From assembly GCA_902598305.1 (NCBI GenBank), contig CACKBL010000003.1, forward strand, positions 124,001-188,000: 64,000 nucleotides of DNA, read 5' to 3'. The stretch comes from an uncultured Bacteroidota bacterium (GTDB taxonomy: Bacteria > Bacteroidota > Bacteroidia > Flavobacteriales > Flavobacteriaceae). The stretch's first letter is position 1. Every line of letters begins with the position of its first letter. The notes below the pieces were generated by a model that searched no databases, was not told the DNA's origin, and saw nothing but the letters and a program-made list of their open reading frames with translations. A program made the position numbers and the translations under genes. Of this stretch, positions 1,353-12,029 are shown in pieces.

Positions 1353-2225
1353 ATGTCCAACAAAGAAAAAGGAGTAAAAAAGGAAAAGGTAAATTGGTTT
1401 CTCCAACTAATTACCCTAGGAGACCGGTTTTCCTGGCGCGATTTTTATGATAGATTAAAAAAAGGTATTGTAGATTTTTCAATCGTTTTTTTTGGTGTTT
1501 TGCTTTCATTTGGTGTTGAACAAAAAGGTATGAGAGATGATGAAAGAGATGATGGAATTGAGAATTTGTACAAGTTGAGAGATGAAATAGAGGAAATGAT
1601 TCAATACACTGATATTTATGCTGATGAATTAAAGTGGGTTTCAGAAATTTTTAGAAAACAATTTTATAGATGGGAAAAAGATTCTGACTCAGCTTTCATT
1701 GATTGGTATGAAGAGCCAGAGGATGAAAATGGAGGATTTTATTTTACTCCAATGGCAAATTACAACCAAAGAAACCCTTTTGACCCACCAAGAACAACTT
1801 TTGAAGCCATAAAACTTGATGGAACTTTTAGGCTTTTACCTGACATAGTTGGAAGAAGAATGACAGATGCATACGAGGGACAAGATGTTAGGTATTTGAT
1901 AGAAAATACCGGTAAAAATGGCATAGAGGAAAGATATGTAAATCAATTTATTGATAGGGTAGCTACTAAATGGGTTTATGACCTTCCTCCATTTGATTTA
2001 AATGAAATAGAATTTTGGATTGAACACAGAAAATATATCCAAGCCGACAAATTTTTAAGATATAATTTATTTAAAAGAGTTGAAATGTGGGATTATGATG
2101 TAAGATTACAGGTTGATAAGTATAAGGAATTTCTTGAAGGCAGTTATAGAATGTTAGATTCTGTTATTGCGGCTAGAGAAAGAGAATATAAAATTATTTA
2201 TTGGGTAATAAATCCACAAACATAA
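1353..2225 (+). CDS. Single-pass membrane protein, DUF6090-like architecture, unknown function
   Basis: A 290-residue protein with a charged N-terminus, one hydrophobic segment at about residues 41-56 (IVDFSIVFFGVLLSF) and a long acidic, tryptophan-rich soluble domain. The layout, including a stretch of the type RTTFEAIKLDGTFRLLPD, recalls the DUF6090 family common in Flavobacteria, which have one membrane helix followed by a helical domain. The match is by pattern only. It has its own promoter-like element at 1293-1322 and ends three bases before the convergent crtI gene. No catalytic motif is visible and no function can be assigned. Confidence 0.7.
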   Translation: MSNKEKGVKKEKVNWFLQLITLGDRFSWRDFYDRLKKGIVDFSIVFFGVLLSFGVEQKGMRDDERDDGIENLYKLRDEIEEMIQYTDIYADELKWVSEIFRKQFYRWEKDSDSAFIDWYEEPEDENGGFYFTPMANYNQRNPFDPPRTTFEAIKLDGTFRLLPDIVGRRMTDAYEGQDVRYLIENTGKNGIEERYVNQFIDRVATKWVYDLPPFDLNEIEFWIEHRKYIQADKFLRYNLFKRVEMWDYDVRLQVDKYKEFLEGSYRMLDSVIAAREREYKIIYWVINPQT

Positions 2226-2228
2226 ATT

Positions 2229-3674
2229 TTAAATTAAATCTGATACAATTTTACCAGATATTATCGAGGGAGGTACACCAGGGCCAGGTACCGTAAGTTG
2301 CCCTGTGAAATAAAGATTTTTAACCTTTTTACTTATCATTTTTGGACGAAGAAAAGCTGTTTGTTTTAATGTATTTGCTAGACCATACGCATTTCCTTTG
2401 TATGAGTTGTATTCTTTTTCAAAATCTTTGACACAGAAAGATTTTTTAAAAAGAACATGGTCTCTTATAGATTGATTTGTCAGTTTTTCAAGTCTGTTAA
2501 TTATAATCTCAAAATATTTTTCTCTTGTCTTGTCAGAGTCAACAATTCCCGGCGCTATAGGGATTAAAAAAAAACACGCTTCCTTACCATTTGGTGCCAT
2601 TGAAGAATCAGTAATCGATGGAAAATTCCCGTAAAAAAGTGGTTTTGATGGCCATTTTGGATTGTCATATATTTCAGTTGCATGAAGATCGAAGTCAACA
2701 TCAAAAAAAAGTGTATGATGGGATACTCTCTGTATTTTTTTATTTAACCCGACAAAAAATAACAAACTTGACGGAGCAAATGTTTTTCTTTCCCAGTAAC
2801 TATCTTTGTAAGATCTAAACTTTTCTTCTAAGAGACTTTCGGTATGATGATAATCAGCACCACTAATTATGACATCACAATACTTTTCTTCACCGTTAAC
2901 AACTATTCCAGTAGCACAATTTCCATTTACTATAATTTTTTCCACATTTTGATTTGTTTCAAATGAAACCCCAAACTCTTCTGCTAATTTTTTCATTCCT
3001 TCAATCACACTGTACATTCCCTTCTCTGGATGCCATGTACCAAGTCCAAAATCTGCATGATTCATGAAATTATAAAAGGCAGGTGTATTAGAGGGCTTTG
3101 CTCCTAAAAAAAGGACTGGAAATTGTAAAATTTGAGAGAGTTTCTCATTTTTAAAATACTTTTCTACTTCTTTTTTTATATTTGTCAAAAAGTACTTTAA
3201 TCTTACAATGGTTTTTTTATTAACTAACTCTAGGGGGGAAATTCCTGGTTTATAAACCATATCTTTTACGGCTATTTCGTAGTGTTTTTCCGCTTTTTCC
3301 ATAAAAGATTTTAAAACAACTCCACTACCTGGTTCAATCCTATCAAATTCTTTACATATCTTTTCTAATGAATTACCAATTTTTACAGAATCAAGCGTGT
3401 TGAAATAAACCTCGTAAGCTGGATTTAATTTTTCCAACTTATAATAGTCGCTTACTTTTTTACCAAAGTCGTTGAAGTAGCTTTCAAAGACATCTGGCAT
3501 CCAGTACCAAGATGGACCAATATCAAAAATGAAACCATCCTTTTTAAATTGTCTAGCTCTGCCTCCAATAGTTGAGTTTTTTTCAAAAACCATAACATTA
3601 TAACCTTTCTTGGCGAGATAAGTTGAAGCGGAAATAGAAGAAAATCCCGAACCAATTATAAATACTTTTTTCAT
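2229..3674 (-). CDS. crtI: Phytoene desaturase CrtI
   Basis: A 481-residue FAD-dependent carotenoid desaturase. The N-terminus has the dinucleotide-binding fold (IIGSGFSSISAS, then VFEKNSTIGGRA) followed by FDIGPSWYWMPD, as in CrtI enzymes. The C-terminus has the family signature LYFTGQLTVPGPGVPPSI. Length matches bacterial CrtI (about 480-500). It would desaturate phytoene to lycopene at the membrane. It lies 17 bases behind the K+-channel gene on the same strand, so the two are probably co-transcribed, and it is divergent from the other carotenoid genes at 4804-7549. It is distinct from CrtD at 5475, so the locus has two desaturase paralogues. Assignment as the multi-step desaturase rather than another CrtI-type oxidoreductase is by motif. 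Confidence 0.88.
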   Translation of the reverse strand: MKKVFIIGSGFSSISASTYLAKKGYNVMVFEKNSTIGGRARQFKKDGFIFDIGPSWYWMPDVFESYFNDFGKKVSDYYKLEKLNPAYEVYFNTLDSVKIGNSLEKICKEFDRIEPGSGVVLKSFMEKAEKHYEIAVKDMVYKPGISPLELVNKKTIVRLKYFLTNIKKEVEKYFKNEKLSQILQFPVLFLGAKPSNTPAFYNFMNHADFGLGTWHPEKGMYSVIEGMKKLAEEFGVSFETNQNVEKIIVNGNCATGIVVNGEEKYCDVIISGADYHHTESLLEEKFRSYKDSYWERKTFAPSSLLFFVGLNKKIQRVSHHTLFFDVDFDLHATEIYDNPKWPSKPLFYGNFPSITDSSMAPNGKEACFFLIPIAPGIVDSDKTREKYFEIIINRLEKLTNQSIRDHVLFKKSFCVKDFEKEYNSYKGNAYGLANTLKQTAFLRPKMISKKVKNLYFTGQLTVPGPGVPPSIISGKIVSDLI

Positions 3675-3691
3675 AAAAAAATAAAATAGAA

Positions 3692-4405
3692 TTATTGATC
3701 CTCTTTTCTTTTGAGTCTTTCTTTGTAAATCTCTTCAACGAAAGACGCGCTAATTACTCCAGTAGGTATAGCAACTACACCAATTCCTACAAGAGAAATT
3801 ATAGTTGCAAAAATTTTGCCTCCCACAGTTATAGGATATACATCACCATAACCAACAGTTGCAAGTGATATTGTTGCCCACCAAACAGACTCAGTAATAC
3901 TTGAAAATTTATCTGGTTGAGCTTCATTTTCTAAATAATAAATCGCAGAGGCTGAAAAAAGAATTGTAAGAGCAGATAAAAACAAAGTAAATAATAGTTG
4001 TTCCTTTACAGAAATTAAAGCTTTAGTAAATAGTTTTAATGAATTGCTGTCTCTTCCAAATTTAAAAATCCTTGTTAATCTAAAAAGTCTGAGTATTCTT
4101 AAAAATCTTCCGTCTAGATTAATAAATTGATTTAAATAAAAAGGTAAAATAGAAATTAAATCAATTAATCCAAAAAAACTAAAAATATAGCTTATCACTC
4201 CTTTTGAACCATTATTGGCAAAAGAGTACAATATTCTATATAGATATTCAAAAGAAAAAATTACAATTGATATAAGTTCAAAAAAATTAAAAAAATAACC
4301 GTATGACTTTCTCACACTTTCGTGGGATTCAAAAATCATGGCAGTTACATTTAAGAAAATTAAAATATATATAAACCTATCAATAAAAAGGTGGACTTTT
4401 TTCAC
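3692..4405 (-). CDS. Voltage-gated potassium channel (Kv-like, six TM)
   Basis: A 237-residue ion channel with about six hydrophobic segments. An S4-type voltage sensor shows regularly spaced arginines (RFLRILRLFRLTRIF, about residues 80-94), and the pore carries the K+ selectivity filter TVGYGD (about residues 185-190). The start is GTG at 4405; the codons that follow give MKKVHLFIDRF. The C-terminus is short and charged, with no RCK/TrkA domain. It follows a 27-codon micro-ORF after three bases and precedes crtI by 17 bases, suggesting one transcript. The channel call is firm; the biological reason for its linkage to a carotenoid gene is unknown. Confidence 0.9.
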   Translation of the reverse strand: MKKVHLFIDRFIYILIFLNVTAMIFESHESVRKSYGYFFNFFELISIVIFSFEYLYRILYSFANNGSKGVISYIFSFFGLIDLISILPFYLNQFINLDGRFLRILRLFRLTRIFKFGRDSNSLKLFTKALISVKEQLLFTLFLSALTILFSASAIYYLENEAQPDKFSSITESVWWATISLATVGYGDVYPITVGGKIFATIISLVGIGVVAIPTGVISASFVEEIYKERLKRKEDQ

Positions 4406-4408
4406 GTG

Positions 4409-4492
4409 TTATTTGATCATGTCTTTAATGATAAAAAAGCAAACCACAATCGTTGTAAATAAAACAAAATATGCAACAAATCCTGGTGTCAT
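4409..4492 (-). CDS. Candidate 27-residue single-TM microprotein upstream of K+ channel
   Basis: ATG at 4492 to TAA at 4409 encodes 27 residues: a short N-terminus, about 18 mostly hydrophobic residues (GFVAYFVLFTTIVVCFFI) and a KDMIK tail, so a single membrane helix. It ends three bases before the GTG start of the channel gene, a spacing typical of translational coupling. A TAGATTTG box (4516-4523, minus strand) lies 24 bases upstream, suiting a short leader. No homologue is recognised. The alternative is that it is only an untranslated leader; the hydrophobic composition and spacing favour a real gene. Confidence 0.45.
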   Translation of the reverse strand: MTPGFVAYFVLFTTIVVCFFIIKDMIK

Positions 4493-4515
4493 AGAAGAAT
4501 TTTCATAAAAATAAT

Positions 4516-4523
4516 CAAATCTA
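4516..4523 (-). promoter_or_regulatory. -7-like box for micro-ORF / K+ channel / crtI transcript
   Basis: TAGATTTG on the minus strand matches TAnnTTTG. It lies 24 bases before the micro-ORF ATG. No convincing -33 TTTG is seen upstream, so support is partial. Confidence 0.35.
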
Positions 4524-4652
4524 TTGAATATGTAAATAATAAGGGATAGACTATTATAAATTTATATATAAGTTTTTAAAATAATCAAATTACAAAAACC
4601 AATTTTGTTTAATTTTTTTTTAATATATTTAAACAATTTAATTCAATTTGAT

Positions 4653-4715
4653 TTTAAACACCTCTGTTTTCTTCAAAAGTCAAATTCTAAAATCCTAATA
4701 GCAGAGGTGTTTAAA
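4653..4715. repeat. 14-bp perfect inverted repeat with 35-base spacer
   Basis: Left arm TTTAAACACCTCTG (4653-4666) is the exact reverse complement of right arm CAGAGGTGTTTAAA (4702-4715). The arms contain the most GC-rich bases in an otherwise AT-dominated spacer. No T-run follows on either strand, so it does not look like an intrinsic terminator. It sits between the -7-like boxes of the two divergent carotenoid transcripts, so a shared operator or a structured leader are the natural readings. Confidence 0.7.
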
Positions 4716-4786
4716 TTTATAGTTTTTACACTTTCAATCATAATTTTAACTTATCGCTAACTTCATAGCTTTTTCTCTTTTTAATT

Positions 4787-4794
4787 TATGTTTG
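4787..4794 (+). promoter_or_regulatory. -7-like box for crtA-like / crtD / cruF operon
   Basis: TATGTTTG matches TAnnTTTG. Transcription would start near 4800, leaving almost no leader before ATG 4804. This argues against the in-frame TTG at 4792, which lies inside the box, as the start. A -33 TTTG is not evident. Confidence 0.4.
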
Positions 4795-4803
4795 GATTTT
4801 TAT

Positions 4804-5478
4804 ATGGGCAACGTAGTTAACTTTTATATTTTTAAATTTCAAAAAAATAAATTTTGGGCTTTCTCCAAAATGGGAACTTACAGGCAATACTTAAAGAATG
4901 TAAAAGGACTTAAGTTTTACAGATTACTTGGAACAGGTGGAAGCAGCGGGTTTGGTTTATACCCGGATTTTAAAACTTATTGTTTTTTATCGGTTTGGGA
5001 AAATAATAATGATGCAAATTATTTTATTAGAAAAAATGAATTTCTCTTAAAATATTTAAAAAAAGCAGATGAAATTCGCCTATTATCTTTAACTCCTTTT
5101 CAATCCAGAGGAAAATGGGCTGGTATAAATCCTTTCTCGAATAATCTTGATGTTCCAAAAAAAAAAAATCTTAAAATAGCCATATTAACTAGAGCTAGGA
5201 TTTCTCCAATTAAACTATTTAGATTTTGGAGAAGTATTCCAAAAGCAAGCCGTGAAATATCTAACGCTAAAGGTGTATTTTTTTACAAGGGCATTGGTGA
5301 AATTCCCTTTCTAGAACAAGCTACTATAAGTTTATGGCATAGCATCGAGGATGTTAAAGAATTTGCATATAAAAGCGATGTTCACAAAAACATCATTAGA
5401 AAAACAAAAAGTGAAAGTTGGTATTTAGAAGAACTGTTTTGCCGTTTTTATGTTGACAAAGATTATTGTTTAAAATGA
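4804..5478 (+). CDS. Spheroidene monooxygenase (CrtA)-like carotenoid oxygenase
   Basis: A 224-residue protein from ATG 4804. The CrtA family pattern is visible in order: a GTGGSSGFGLYPD segment, FLSVWEN, SRGKWAGINPF, ILTRARISP, GIGEIPFLEQATISLWHS, and a closing FAYKSDVH...ESWYLEELFCRF. In purple bacteria CrtA adds a 2-keto group to acyclic carotenoids such as spheroidene, probably as a haem enzyme. The stop overlaps the crtD start (ATGA), so it is the first gene of a crtA-crtD-cruF operon. Family membership is well supported by motif; substrate and regiochemistry here are inferred. Confidence 0.8.
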   Translation: MGNVVNFYIFKFQKNKFWAFSKMGTYRQYLKNVKGLKFYRLLGTGGSSGFGLYPDFKTYCFLSVWENNNDANYFIRKNEFLLKYLKKADEIRLLSLTPFQSRGKWAGINPFSNNLDVPKKKNLKIAILTRARISPIKLFRFWRSIPKASREISNAKGVFFYKGIGEIPFLEQATISLWHSIEDVKEFAYKSDVHKNIIRKTKSESWYLEELFCRFYVDKDYCLK

Positions 5479-6947
5479 TAAAAAAAAAGGTAGGTATAAT
5501 AGGCTCTGGCGTTTCAGGTCTGTCAGCATCGATTCGCTTATCAAGTATGGGATATGAAGTTCATGTATTTGAATCAAATGAATACCCAGGGGGAAAATTA
5601 ACATCTTTTAAACTTGGGAATTATCGTTTCGATGCAGGCCCACCACTGTTTACTATGCCTGAGTACGTTGATGAATTATTTCATTTGTTTAACGAAAATC
5701 CTAGAGATTTTTTTAACTACAAAAAAAAAGAAATTATTTGTAAATATTTTTGGCAAGATGGTAAAAAACTTGTTGCTTACGCAGATAAAGATAAATTCTT
5801 TGATGAAGTAAACTCAGAATTTGGTGTAAGCAATAAAATCCTAAAAAAATACTTAGATAAAGCAAAAAAAAAATATGATTTAACCTCAGATTTATTTTTA
5901 AAAAAATCGCTCCATAAACTAGATACTTTTTTGACGGTAAAAACAATAAAGGCCTTGTCAAAGTTATCAATTTTTGAAATTGGAAAAACTTTATCTGAGG
6001 TAAATGAAAAGTCTCTCAAAGAACCCCATTTAATTCAATTTTATAATAGATACGCTACTTATAATGGTTCATCTCCTTACTCTACACCAGGAATAATGAC
6101 TGTTATTCAACACTTGGAATCTCATTATGGGACATACATTCCTGACGGAGGAATGCACAGTATAACAAAAAGTTTGTATGAACTAGCTAAGAGACAAGGT
6201 GTCATTTTTAACTTTAATAAGTTTGTAAGTGAAATAATTTTAAAAGAAAATAGAGCTATAGGATTGGTTGTGGATGGTAGAAACTTATTTTTTGATAGGG
6301 TAATATCAAATATGGATGTCTACCCCACCTATGAAAAATTGCTTCCAAAAAGAAAACTTCCGAGAAACATAAAATATCAGGAAAGGTCGAGCTCAGCTAT
6401 TATATTCTATTGGGGGATATCCAAAAGATTTGATAATTTGGATTTACATAACGTTTTTTTCTCAAACGATTATCGTAAAGAATTTGATTCAATTTTTAAC
6501 CAAAAAAGTGTTTATGTTGACCCTACAATATATGTCAACATAACTTCTAAAGAAATTCCGACAGACTCTCCTGAAAACTCTGAAAATTGGTTTGTTATGG
6601 TCAATACTTGTGAAGATAACGGGCAAAATTGGAATTTAGAAGCTAAGAAGTTAAAAAAAATAGTTCTCGAAAGACTTGAGAGTATTTTAGGTGAGTCAAT
6701 AGCCCCTTTCATTGAAGAAGAAAAAATATTTACACCAAAGACTATAGAAGAGAGGACAAAATCCCACAAAGGATCATTATATGGTACATCAAGCAATGGT
6801 CTTTTTTCAGCTTTTTTGAGACATCCAAATTTCTCAAGAAAAATTAAAAATCTCTATTTTTGTGGAGGAAGTGTTCACCCTGGTGGAGGTATTCCACTTT
6901 GTTTACTATCCGCTAAAATAACGACTGAGCTAATTAATAAAAATTGA
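5475..6947 (+). CDS. crtD: CrtD-type 1-hydroxycarotenoid 3,4-desaturase
   Basis: A 490-residue CrtI-superfamily flavoenzyme starting at ATG 5475, which overlaps the preceding stop as ATGA. The N-terminus has the FAD-binding motif GIIGSGVSGLSASIRL and FDAGPPLFTMPEY; the C-terminus has LYFCGGSVHPGGGIPLCLLS, the form with GGS/HPGGG typical of CrtD rather than CrtI (which has GQLTVPGPGVPPS here). CrtD introduces a 3,4 double bond into 1-hydroxylated carotenoids. Position directly before CruF, the hydratase that makes its substrate, supports the assignment. It is clearly paralogous to CrtI at 2229. Confidence 0.82.
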   Translation: MIKKKVGIIGSGVSGLSASIRLSSMGYEVHVFESNEYPGGKLTSFKLGNYRFDAGPPLFTMPEYVDELFHLFNENPRDFFNYKKKEIICKYFWQDGKKLVAYADKDKFFDEVNSEFGVSNKILKKYLDKAKKKYDLTSDLFLKKSLHKLDTFLTVKTIKALSKLSIFEIGKTLSEVNEKSLKEPHLIQFYNRYATYNGSSPYSTPGIMTVIQHLESHYGTYIPDGGMHSITKSLYELAKRQGVIFNFNKFVSEIILKENRAIGLVVDGRNLFFDRVISNMDVYPTYEKLLPKRKLPRNIKYQERSSSAIIFYWGISKRFDNLDLHNVFFSNDYRKEFDSIFNQKSVYVDPTIYVNITSKEIPTDSPENSENWFVMVNTCEDNGQNWNLEAKKLKKIVLERLESILGESIAPFIEEEKIFTPKTIEERTKSHKGSLYGTSSNGLFSAFLRHPNFSRKIKNLYFCGGSVHPGGGIPLCLLSAKITTELINKN

Positions 6948-7549
6948 ATCTAAAAAAACACAAAATATCAAGTAATTTAATTTGCATTCTTATTATTTGG
7001 GTTTTTCATCTGTCTGGTATCATCGGAATTTTATATGGAGATTCTGAGAGGTTTATATCTCTAACCCCTCTCAATTTATCTGTTTCATTTTTTCTTCTAG
7101 TTTATATTAATAAAAGTCATTTTAAAACAATAGTATTTATATTTTCCTGCTTTTTCACTGGCATGATTTGTGAAATCTTGGGAGTAAATCTTGGAATTAT
7201 TTTTGGAGATTATGAATATGGAGGAGCATTGGGCTACAAGGTTTTTGATGTGCCATTACTAATTGGAGCTAATTGGGCAATATTAACTGTTTCATGCTCA
7301 GCTTTATCTGCAACTTTATTTGATTCAGTAATCAATAAAATAATAATGGGTGTTTTTCTTATGGTAATGCTAGATTCTGTTATTGAGCCTATCGCTCCCA
7401 TATTAGATTTTTGGGAATTTGATGGGGGTAAGGCTCCTTTGAAAAATTATTTAGGATGGGTTTTAGTAGCCTTTCCATTAAATTGCATGTATCACATTTT
7501 TAAATATAAAAGTAAATGGGACTTTTACACATCACCTAATTATTCTTAA
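6944..7549 (+). CDS. cruF: CruF-like carotenoid 1,2-hydratase (DUF422 family)
   Basis: A 201-residue multi-pass membrane protein with about six or seven hydrophobic segments. The start is a TTG at 6944 overlapping the crtD stop (TTGA); no ATG occurs before the first membrane helix. Family features include GMICEILGVNLGIIFGDYEYGGALG, broken here by a conserved acidic/aromatic motif (GDYEYG), a GANWA segment, and a late DSVIEPIAPILDFWEF stretch. CruF enzymes hydrate the psi end of carotenoids to give the 1-hydroxy group used by CrtD, as in myxol-, saproxanthin- and flexixanthin-type routes. Exact product is not deducible because no cyclase is in view. Confidence 0.78.
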   Translation: MNLKKHKISSNLICILIIWVFHLSGIIGILYGDSERFISLTPLNLSVSFFLLVYINKSHFKTIVFIFSCFFTGMICEILGVNLGIIFGDYEYGGALGYKVFDVPLLIGANWAILTVSCSALSATLFDSVINKIIMGVFLMVMLDSVIEPIAPILDFWEFDGGKAPLKNYLGWVLVAFPLNCMYHIFKYKSKWDFYTSPNYS

Positions 7550-7612: not shown

Positions 7613-8077
7613 TTGAAATATCTTTATTCATTTTCTTTATTGATTTTTTTCTCTTGTCACAGTCCAAATGATTTGAAAAAGAAAAAAAATATTTCTGAAG
7701 TTCAAGAAATTTCTTTGGACAATAATTTTCAAATTTACATTCCTAAAAAAAACTCCTTTGTAGATTCAATAGTCAAGTCTGTTTCTGAATTGAGAGATTT
7801 AAAAATTTCAATTGAAGATTTAACAAAACTAAATCCAAATGGCATTGAATCATTTTTAGATGAAACATTGAATAAGTGTGACAATTTATTAAACCTAAAA
7901 AATAATAAATTTGTCTCTAGACCAGAAATTAGAGGTAGATTAAAAGTTTTGAAAACAAATATTTTAAAGTGTAAATTTAATAATCATCAAAATGATATTG
8001 CCAACTTAAACGAAAGTCTTAGAAAATTATTTATAAGTTATAATATTCTATTCGAAAGGTTGGATGGTTTAAGGTAG
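7613..8077 (+). CDS. Small predicted lipoprotein, unknown function
   Basis: A 154-residue protein from TTG 7613. The N-terminus is a short lipoprotein signal (LYSFSLLIFFSC), so mature Cys is at about residue 15. The mature part is lysine- and asparagine-rich and mostly helical by eye, with two further cysteines (near residues 88 and 119). It converges with the orphan at 8079 with only one base between stops. No family is recognised. The non-ATG start and low complexity lower confidence, but the lipobox and long open frame favour a real gene. Confidence 0.6.
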   Translation: MKYLYSFSLLIFFSCHSPNDLKKKKNISEVQEISLDNNFQIYIPKKNSFVDSIVKSVSELRDLKISIEDLTKLNPNGIESFLDETLNKCDNLLNLKNNKFVSRPEIRGRLKVLKTNILKCKFNNHQNDIANLNESLRKLFISYNILFERLDGLR

Positions 8078-9579: not shown

Positions 9580-11259
9580 TTATTTTTTAGTTTTTTCTAA
9601 TTTTTGATATTGACTATGAATTTCTCCATCTTCAATCTTTTCAAAGAGGAAAGATCCTCCATTTATTTGATGTCCTGATTTAATAATATTGTTATTAAGT
9701 ATTTCATTCCATTTAATTTGTTTATTAATTCTAAGAATCCCTTTAAGTTTTAATGAAGTAAAGGGAAGGAAAGGCTCACTTAAATAAGCAAGAGCAGAAA
9801 CAATTTGAATTGATACAAATAGTATTGTTTTAGTTCTTTCAGGTTCATTTTTAATTTTTTTCCAGGGTTCGTTGTCAGCAAGATATTTGTTTCCAATTCT
9901 TGCAATATTTATCATCTCAGAATTTGATTCCCTAAATCTAAATTTTTCTATTGTTAAACCAATCTTGTCCCTGGCAAGTTTGATAGATTTTATTGTTTTT
10001 TCGTCTTCCTTTGTTAGTATTTCTGGGGTTGGGACTTCACCCATATAATATTTATTTATAAGCACAATTACCCTGTTTACATAATTACCGTAAATAGCAA
10101 CAAGCTCATTATTATTTTTAGCTTGAAAATCTTTCCAAGTAAAGTCACTATCCTTAGTTTCAGGCATATTAGCAACTAAAACATACCTCATTACATCCTC
10201 CTTGTCAGGAAAATCCTCTAAATATTCATGAATCCAAACTGCCCAATTTTTAGATGTTGAGATTTTTTCTCCTTCAAGATTTAGGAATTCATTAGCAGGA
10301 ACATTTTTTGGTAGAATATATCCTCCATGAGCTCTAAGCATAGATGGAAAAATAATACAATGAAAAACAATATTATCTTTTCCGATAAAGTGCACTAGTT
10401 CAGTTTCATCATTTTTCCAATAATCTTCCCAATTTTTTTTATTTTCTAGTGCCCACTCTTTAGTTGACGAAATATAACCAATTGGAGCATCAAACCATAC
10501 ATACAAAACTTTCCCCTTTGCTTCTTTAATTGGCACTGGGATGCCCCAATTCAAATCTCTTGTAACAGCTCTTGGTTTTAGACCCTCCTCAATCCAAGAT
10601 TTTACCTGACCGTAAACATTTGTCTTCCAGTCTTCTTTGTGTTTATCTAGTATCCAACCTCTTATAAAATCTTCATACTTGTTTAGGGGTAAGTACCAAT
10701 GTTTAGTTTTTTTTAAAATTGGTTTCTCACCAGATAAAGTTGATTTAGGATTGCCTAAATCAATTGCGTTCAATGAACTACCACATTTTTCACATTGATC
10801 CCCATAAGCATCTTTATAAGAACATATTGGGCAAGTTCCTGTAACAAATCTGTCTGCAAGAAATTTTTTAGAAGTATCATCAAAAAGTTGATCAGAAGTC
10901 ATTTCAATAAATTTTTTACTTGAATTTAATTTTTGGAAAAATTCTGAAGCTGTGTCATAATGAATTTGTCTCGATGTTCTAGAGTAATTATCAAAGGAGA
11001 TTCCAAAACTTTCGAAAGATTTTCTAATAATTTTATCGTATTTATCTATAATAGATTTTGGAGTTGTTGTTTCCTTGGATGCTTTAATTGAAATAGCAAC
11101 ACCATGTTCGTCACTTCCACAAATAAAAATAACTTCTCTACCACACAGCCTTAAGTATCTTGCGTAAATATCGGCAGGTATATAAACTCCTGATAGATGA
11201 CCAATGTGAATAGGTCCATTAGTGTAAGGTAAAGCTGCCGTTATTGTGTAGCGCTTCAT
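9580..11259 (-). CDS. metG: Methionyl-tRNA synthetase, short form without C-terminal tRNA-binding domain
   Basis: A 559-residue class I synthetase that charges tRNA-Met. The HIGH motif is at 18-21, the zinc-knuckle cysteines at 143, 146, 156 and 159, and the KMSKS-like KISTS at 332-336. The anticodon-binding helical domain follows and the protein ends at about residue 559 in a lysine tail. Flavobacterial MetRS proteins are commonly near 690 residues with a Trbp111-like domain at the end (recalled, not searched); it is absent here, and the downstream gene is unrelated. A TATTTTTG box lies 18 bases before the ATG. Confidence 0.95.
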
Positions 11260-11276
11260 TTAAGATAGGATTTATA

Positions 11277-11284
11277 CAAAAATA
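11277..11284 (-). promoter_or_regulatory. -7-like box for metG
   Basis: TATTTTTG on the minus strand matches TAnnTTTG and lies 18 bases upstream of the metG ATG. A TTTG (plus-strand CAAA at 11308-11311) lies 23 bases further, a slightly long spacing. Confidence 0.4.
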
Positions 11285-11339
11285 AGATTTATATACCCAA
11301 TTTTCTTCAAATATTAAGTATTAATTAATTTAAGAAAAT

Positions 11340-11353
11340 GTTATATTTATAAC
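11340..11353. repeat. 6-2-6 perfect palindrome upstream of ACT-domain gene
   Basis: GTTATATTTATAAC is a perfect dyad (6-base arms, 2-base centre), followed directly by CACAGTGTG, itself nearly palindromic. It lies 17 bases before the ATG at 11370, so it could be an operator; AT-richness makes chance occurrence quite possible. Confidence 0.3.
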
Positions 11354-11369
11354 ACAGTGTGAAAAAAAT

Positions 11370-12029
11370 ATGAAAACTATTTCTTCTGTAGTAGAAAACT
11401 ACATTAAAAATAAACCATTTCTGTCAACTGCTTTGTCTGAAGGAATTATTAATCTAACTTCTTTATCAAGAAGGATAAAACCCGAAATCGAGTTAGTGCT
11501 TAAAAAGCAAATAAGAAGTGGGGCAATTGTAATGGCTTTAAAGAGAATTTCAAATAGTTTAGAATTTGTTTCAACTCACAAAATTTTAAAAGTATTAAAA
11601 AATATCGGCGACATTACGGTGAGGTCCAATTTGATAGATTATAGTTTTAAAGTTTCAGATTCCTTATTGTCTTGTCAAGCAAAATTTTTGTCTGAAATTG
11701 ATAATCCTCAATTAATTTTTTACACCTCATCCAGAGGAGTTACTGAGTCAAATATCATTATTAGTAGCGAAATGAAAGAAAAGATGGAGGCTTATTTTGA
11801 AAAAGAAATTTTAATTAAAAAAACAGATAACTTATCCTCAATTTCAATTAAGTTGCCAGTCGAGAACGTTTCGATACCAGGAATATATTATTTCATATTT
11901 CAAAAAATGTCATGGGAGGGTATAAATATCATTGAAGTAATATCAACATCAAACGAATTTACAATCGTTTTAGATGACAAAAATGTGAATGATGCATTTA
12001 AAATAATTAAGAATTTGAAAAGTTTATAA
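11370..12029 (+). CDS. ACT-domain protein (aspartate-kinase-like regulatory region)
   Basis: A 219-residue cytosolic protein. The N-terminal ~75 residues look like a small helical DNA-binding-type domain (SEGIINLTSLSRRIKPEIE, then VMALKRIS). The C-terminal half (about 150-219) has ACT-type features: SSISIKLPVENVSIPGIYYFI, then WEGINIIEVISTSNEFTIVL, as in the regulatory end of aspartate kinases. The kinase domain is absent. Such proteins are frequent in Flavobacteria and are often annotated only as hypothetical or aspartate kinase. An amino-acid-responsive regulator is a reasonable inference. Its 3' end overlaps the convergent mfd gene by 23 bases. Confidence 0.72.
   Translation: MKTISSVVENYIKNKPFLSTALSEGIINLTSLSRRIKPEIELVLKKQIRSGAIVMALKRISNSLEFVSTHKILKVLKNIGDITVRSNLIDYSFKVSDSLLSCQAKFLSEIDNPQLIFYTSSRGVTESNIIISSEMKEKMEAYFEKEILIKKTDNLSSISIKLPVENVSIPGIYYFIFQKMSWEGINIIEVISTSNEFTIVLDDKNVNDAFKIIKNLKSL

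Follow-up and report, generated by a model that had tools for sequence, protein, structure and literature searches.

The divergent carotenoid locus at positions 2229–7549 of the window (the whole stretch of 64,000 nt analysed here) very likely encodes the part of a myxol pathway that acts on the psi end, the other half being encoded elsewhere in the genome, and myxol is its likeliest product. The gene set equals the published myxol set; the pathway is already known, and it is the gene order that is rearranged here. The CrtA-family oxygenase of the locus is most likely CrtA-OH, the hydroxylase already known from this pathway. With these results, all genes of the myxol set are placed in a marine flavobacterium of 1.8 Mb that carries proteorhodopsin.

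Profile searches recovered all four genes named in the initial annotation (crtI, the crtA-family gene, crtD and cruF), and their matches bore these names out. On the minus strand, crtI (2229–3674; phytoene desaturase) scored 724.9 bits against NF058655, the NCBIfam family of bifunctional phytoene desaturase/3,4-desaturase (CrtID), exceeding the curated cut-off of 640; CrtI from the Nonlabens-type cluster of genome G053 was also above this cut-off (735.6). It is joined on the same strand by kch (3692–4405), a gene for a voltage-gated-type ion (potassium) channel (PF00520, 112 bits; PF07885, 58.6 bits) that the initial annotation did not mention and that separates crtI from the divergent promoter region. 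The intergenic region between the two divergent units, kch-crtI and crtA-crtD-cruF, spans 4406–4803 and was examined in the sequence and in an alignment of five loci. The plus strand carries the CrtA-family oxygenase, most likely a carotenoid psi-end 2-hydroxylase (4804–5478; NF045923, E 2.8e-55), crtD (5475–6947; 1-hydroxycarotenoid 3,4-desaturase; NF042421, 637.2 bits, above the curated cut-off of 500) and cruF (6944–7549; carotenoid 1,2-hydratase; PF04240, 89.6 bits, cut-off 25). The start of crtA at ATG 4804 agrees with that in the related locus L011, and TTG at 4792 is also possible. The crtD frame as listed begins at TTG 5466; its ATG at 5475 shares bases with the stop codon of crtA (5476–5478) in the sequence ATGA, and the crtD stop is in turn overlapped by the start of cruF. 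The arrangement is more than chance, because the order crtI-kch followed divergently by crtA-crtD-cruF recurs in the kin loci L008–L011 and in G413 and G524, which belong to other genera of the same family.

We located the remaining pathway genes in the 1.80-Mb assembly (26 contigs, 88% complete). The only crtB in the genome (SQS_PSY) lies on contig C9 (98155–98883) and is followed by crtZ, encoding a 148-aa FA_hydroxylase. The only lycopene cyclase gene, crtY, was found on contig C3 (67283–68368), convergent with a polyprenyl-diphosphate synthase gene; the latter is a putative crtE, assigned as a polyprenyl/GGPP-type synthase with scores under the curated NCBIfam cut-offs. Compared with the genes in the corresponding slots of G053, the identities were 63% for crtB, 59% for crtZ and 38% for crtY. 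The two larger FA_hydroxylase matches on C1 and C6 (frames of 413 and 291 aa) were set aside as CrtZ candidates in favour of the 148-aa neighbour of crtB. The observation that the window itself holds no crtB, cyclase or crtZ was thus correct, since the single crtB and cyclase matches and the crtB-adjacent crtZ are all outside it; the final product, previously regarded as open, can be narrowed down by the presence of crtB, crtZ, crtY and the prenyl-diphosphate synthase elsewhere in the genome. The proposed genome-wide check for crtB, crtY, crtZ and crtW succeeded for the first three, and a search with PF00487 yielded no CrtW 4-ketolase in the 88%-complete assembly. Of the two PF00487 matches, one is a fusion protein of 750 aa and the other resembles AlkB (343 aa); judged by length and sequence, neither is CrtW, and flexixanthin or another 4-keto product was rejected on the basis of the matches in this assembly.

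Family matches from the profile searches cover all steps of the following route. The C3 prenyl-diphosphate synthase would provide GGPP, from which CrtB would form phytoene and CrtI lycopene. Closing of one lycopene end by CrtY would give gamma-carotene, CruF would then hydrate C1' to yield 1'-hydroxy-gamma-carotene, and CrtD would desaturate C3',4' to 1'-hydroxytorulene. The CrtA-family enzyme would add one hydroxyl group to C2' of this intermediate, leading to deoxymyxol, and hydroxylation of the beta ring by CrtZ would complete myxol. If CrtY acted at both ends, beta-carotene would result, which Blh could cleave to retinal for proteorhodopsin. That the CrtA-family enzyme stops at one hydroxylation and that myxol is the final product is what we infer from the observed genes and families. 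The steps from lycopene on have each been demonstrated by others for homologues. According to the cited part of a study on Nonlabens spongiae, crtA-OH of this species converted 1'-hydroxytorulene to deoxymyxol in Escherichia coli, and crtZ then led to myxol (PMC11855829). The same source cites the enzyme of Flavobacterium P99-3, for which this function had been shown earlier, as CrtA-OH, a carotenoid 2-hydroxylase. For Schleiferia thermophila, crtBDEIYZA plus cruF and a myxol-like pigment detected by HPLC are described in the passages cited (PMC4148732).

These precedents bear on several expectations of the initial annotation. The 1-hydroxy, 3,4-desaturated end group it had deduced from CrtI, CrtD and CruF is supported. 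It had also considered the CrtA-family enzyme to be 2-keto-forming; the tested members in Bacteroidota add a 2-hydroxyl group instead, as far as the cited parts of three publications go (PMC11855829, PMC10604819, PMC2889829), and one of these, a comparative study, states that CrtA acts as a hydroxylase in Bacteroidetes (PMC2889829). Contrary to what had been supposed, CrtA beside CrtD and CruF is not unusual in this phylum, since CrtA-OH belongs to the myxol pathway. Nor does a product outside the saproxanthin/myxol/flexixanthin set have to be assumed: CrtI, CrtD, CruF and CrtA together with crtB, crtY and crtZ make up the published myxol set, and crtD, cruF, crtB, crtI, crtY and crtZ all co-occur with the CrtA relative in this Bacteroidota genome. 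A likely misannotation is corrected in this way, as Bacteroidota CrtA relatives have been named spheroidene monooxygenase by similarity, whereas the tested ones are myxol-pathway 2-hydroxylases. The genome report for Sediminicola sp. YIK13, in the part consulted, lists its crtA under that name.

The myxol cluster of Nonlabens resembles the genes found here in that the same enzyme families serve each step, a MerR-type regulator is placed beside crt genes, and crtE stands apart. However, Nonlabens has the genes in one cluster, as do G053, G355 and G403, whereas here they are found at no fewer than three separate sites: crtI/crtA-crtD-cruF, merR-crtB-crtZ and crtE/crtY. A further difference from the Nonlabens cluster is the potassium-channel gene that adjoins crtI.

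The CrtA-family protein matched a single NCBIfam family, spheroidene monooxygenase (NF045923), with 187.1 bits under a curated cut-off of 300, and so falls short of membership in this 2-ketolase family by that cut-off. CrtA of G053, which has the published Nonlabens gene order, scored 189, and three CrtAs from plasmid-borne photosynthesis clusters reached 350–370. The window protein is 97% identical to CrtA of L011, 35% and 38% identical to the CrtAs of G355 and G053, respectively, and about 31–35% identical to the plasmid-borne photosynthesis-cluster copies. We calculated a CrtA tree of 53 rows, in which Nonlabens-type rows with the published gene order stand in for the proven enzymes of P99-3 and N. 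spongiae. The tree was built without the two copies of the window gene itself (L001, L030), without 12 weak loci (L042, L044, L060–L069; E 1.5e-9 to 7.6e-4) short of the tblastn threshold of E 1e-8, and without three of the ten plasmid matches (H5–H7); the Deinococcus and Nonomuraea plasmid matches were used for the tree alone. The window row grouped with L011, L008, L009, L010 and G456 (100/100), and this group was nested in a 13-row clade of Flavobacteriaceae (89/64), outside the Nonlabens-type rows, which formed a 9-row clade of their own (99/94). The plasmid photosynthesis-cluster CrtAs constituted a 5-row clade (100/100) that did not include the window row. The initial annotation had named a place outside the family in the CrtA tree as its refutation; the outcome was intermediate, with the window row within the superfamily but not in the photosynthetic CrtA clade. 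The deeper branching is not ordered: the best tree joined Nonlabens-type and photosynthesis-type rows at 53/93, and neither a grouping of the window row with the Nonlabens type (AU p 0.151) nor one with the photosynthesis-cluster type (AU p 0.162) was rejected. Because of these two values the CrtA tree alone does not separate hydroxylase from ketolase.

Gene neighbourhoods and relatives of the window protein were evaluated as well. In all 13 rows of its clade crtD is directly 3' of crtA, cruF comes next in 12 of them (it was not found in G526), and crtI adjoins in nine. The window enzyme has the same partners, CrtD and CruF, as the CrtA-OH of P99-3 and N. spongiae and belongs to the same family, whereas the plasmid photosynthesis-cluster CrtAs stand beside bchI and crtI-crtB. 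Among 395 sampled Bacteroidota genomes, 27 had a match to the CrtA model (E <= 1e-3), and in 26, the genome studied here included, the match was strong (E 1e-41 or better); within the same family, matches occurred in 26 of 149 genomes, 16 of them strong (again including this one). Strong CrtA matches occurred in 41 genomes in all, this one included, and for 28 of these the wider neighbourhoods were read. There, crtD was near or next to crtA in 19 cases, and the queries used detected no other crt gene in the other nine. Searching PDB chains with the CrtA sequence gave zero matches at E up to 1, and an AlphaFold model based on a three-row alignment had a mean pLDDT of 43.6.

Could the window enzyme nevertheless act as a ketolase, hydroxylating C2' twice with subsequent loss of water, so that a 2'-keto, 1'-hydroxy monocyclic carotenoid arises? 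It shares its superfamily with the purple-bacterial spheroidene monooxygenase, its grouping with the photosynthesis-cluster CrtAs was not rejected, and such a change is possible, since the ketolase of purple bacteria evolved from crtA-OH by acquiring a second hydroxylation according to the cited part of a review (PMC10604819). We consider this unlikely. The photosynthesis-cluster enzymes surpass the curated cut-off, and the window protein scores far under it. At the 20 alignment columns separating the nine Nonlabens-type from the five photosynthesis-cluster rows, it has the Nonlabens-type residue ten times, the photosynthesis-type residue five times and neither one five times, a count that signals relatedness rather than testing function. 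The gene set of the genome, moreover, is that for myxol. By the sub-cut-off score, the residue columns and the myxol gene set, a keto carotenoid was rejected as the default product. We rate it as quite improbable that the clade of the window enzyme, made up of crtA-crtD-cruF operons from small-genome marine Flavobacteriaceae and distinct from the clade of the Nonlabens-type genomes, is a lineage of its own apart from known CrtA-OH that makes a 2'-keto myxol-type pigment or represents an intermediate between hydroxylase and ketolase; if true, this clade would show where the ketolase of purple bacteria originated.

Another explanation starts from cruF. In a DNA alignment with L011 and L008, the window cruF has one extra T near position 7497, which alters the last residues of CruF and reduces its length from 220 to 201 aa. 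Were this mutation real, it would lower 1'-hydroxylation, and with a CrtA that is inactive or uses another substrate the pigments would end at a saproxanthin-type carotenoid or at zeaxanthin, the latter being permitted by crtZ and crtY. However, the extra base is part of a T homopolymer and may stem from the assembly, the shortened CruF still has its Caroten_synth match (residues 57–185), and CrtA retains all residues that are invariant in a 30-row alignment, including His194. We therefore hold this explanation to be very unlikely and adhere to CrtA-OH and myxol as the preferred interpretation.

Upstream of crtB-crtZ on contig C9, the minus strand encodes a MerR-type regulator that contains a B12-binding domain (10976–11899 of locus L003). 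It resembles CarH, scoring 66.5 bits under the cut-off of 400. By eye we recognized the motif W-x9-EH, which we take to be the light-sensing motif of CarH; judged from this motif, crtB-crtZ may be under light control through B12.

In the genus of the window genome the channel gene kch lies between crtI and the promoter of crtA, and so it does in G413 and G524, with 68–72% identity; as these two belong to other genera, the pairing of crtI and kch is old. Reading of the neighbourhoods placed kch beside crtI/crtA in eight of the 13 members of the window CrtA clade. The literature matches listed contained nothing pertinent on a potassium channel beside crt genes. Ending just before kch, we noticed an ORF of 27 codons on the minus strand (4492–4409), which has 28 codons in five other genomes. 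The encoded protein carries a single hydrophobic, membrane-like stretch, MTPGFVAYFVLFTTIVVCFFIIKDMIK, and is conserved in all six genomes, in contrast to the frame preceding the ATG. Possibly, this ORF encodes a small membrane protein working with the channel. The genes flanking the locus, 1353–2225 (+) for a 290-aa protein and 7613–8077 (+) for a small lipoprotein-like protein, are conserved in position in L008, L011 and G413; their products had zero Pfam or NCBIfam matches.

Proteorhodopsin and a divergent blh are located on contig C13. In an alignment, this proteorhodopsin (L015, 1489–2220, minus strand) has Gly in helix 5 where green proteorhodopsin has Phe. The position presumably corresponds to Gly156 of xanthorhodopsin, the glycine opening the carotenoid site. 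With this residue, a zeaxanthin- or myxol-type antenna on the C13 proteorhodopsin appears possible. The cited passages of a study use the glycine as a criterion and report that 3-hydroxylated carotenoids can serve some rhodopsins as light antennas (PMC12308411).
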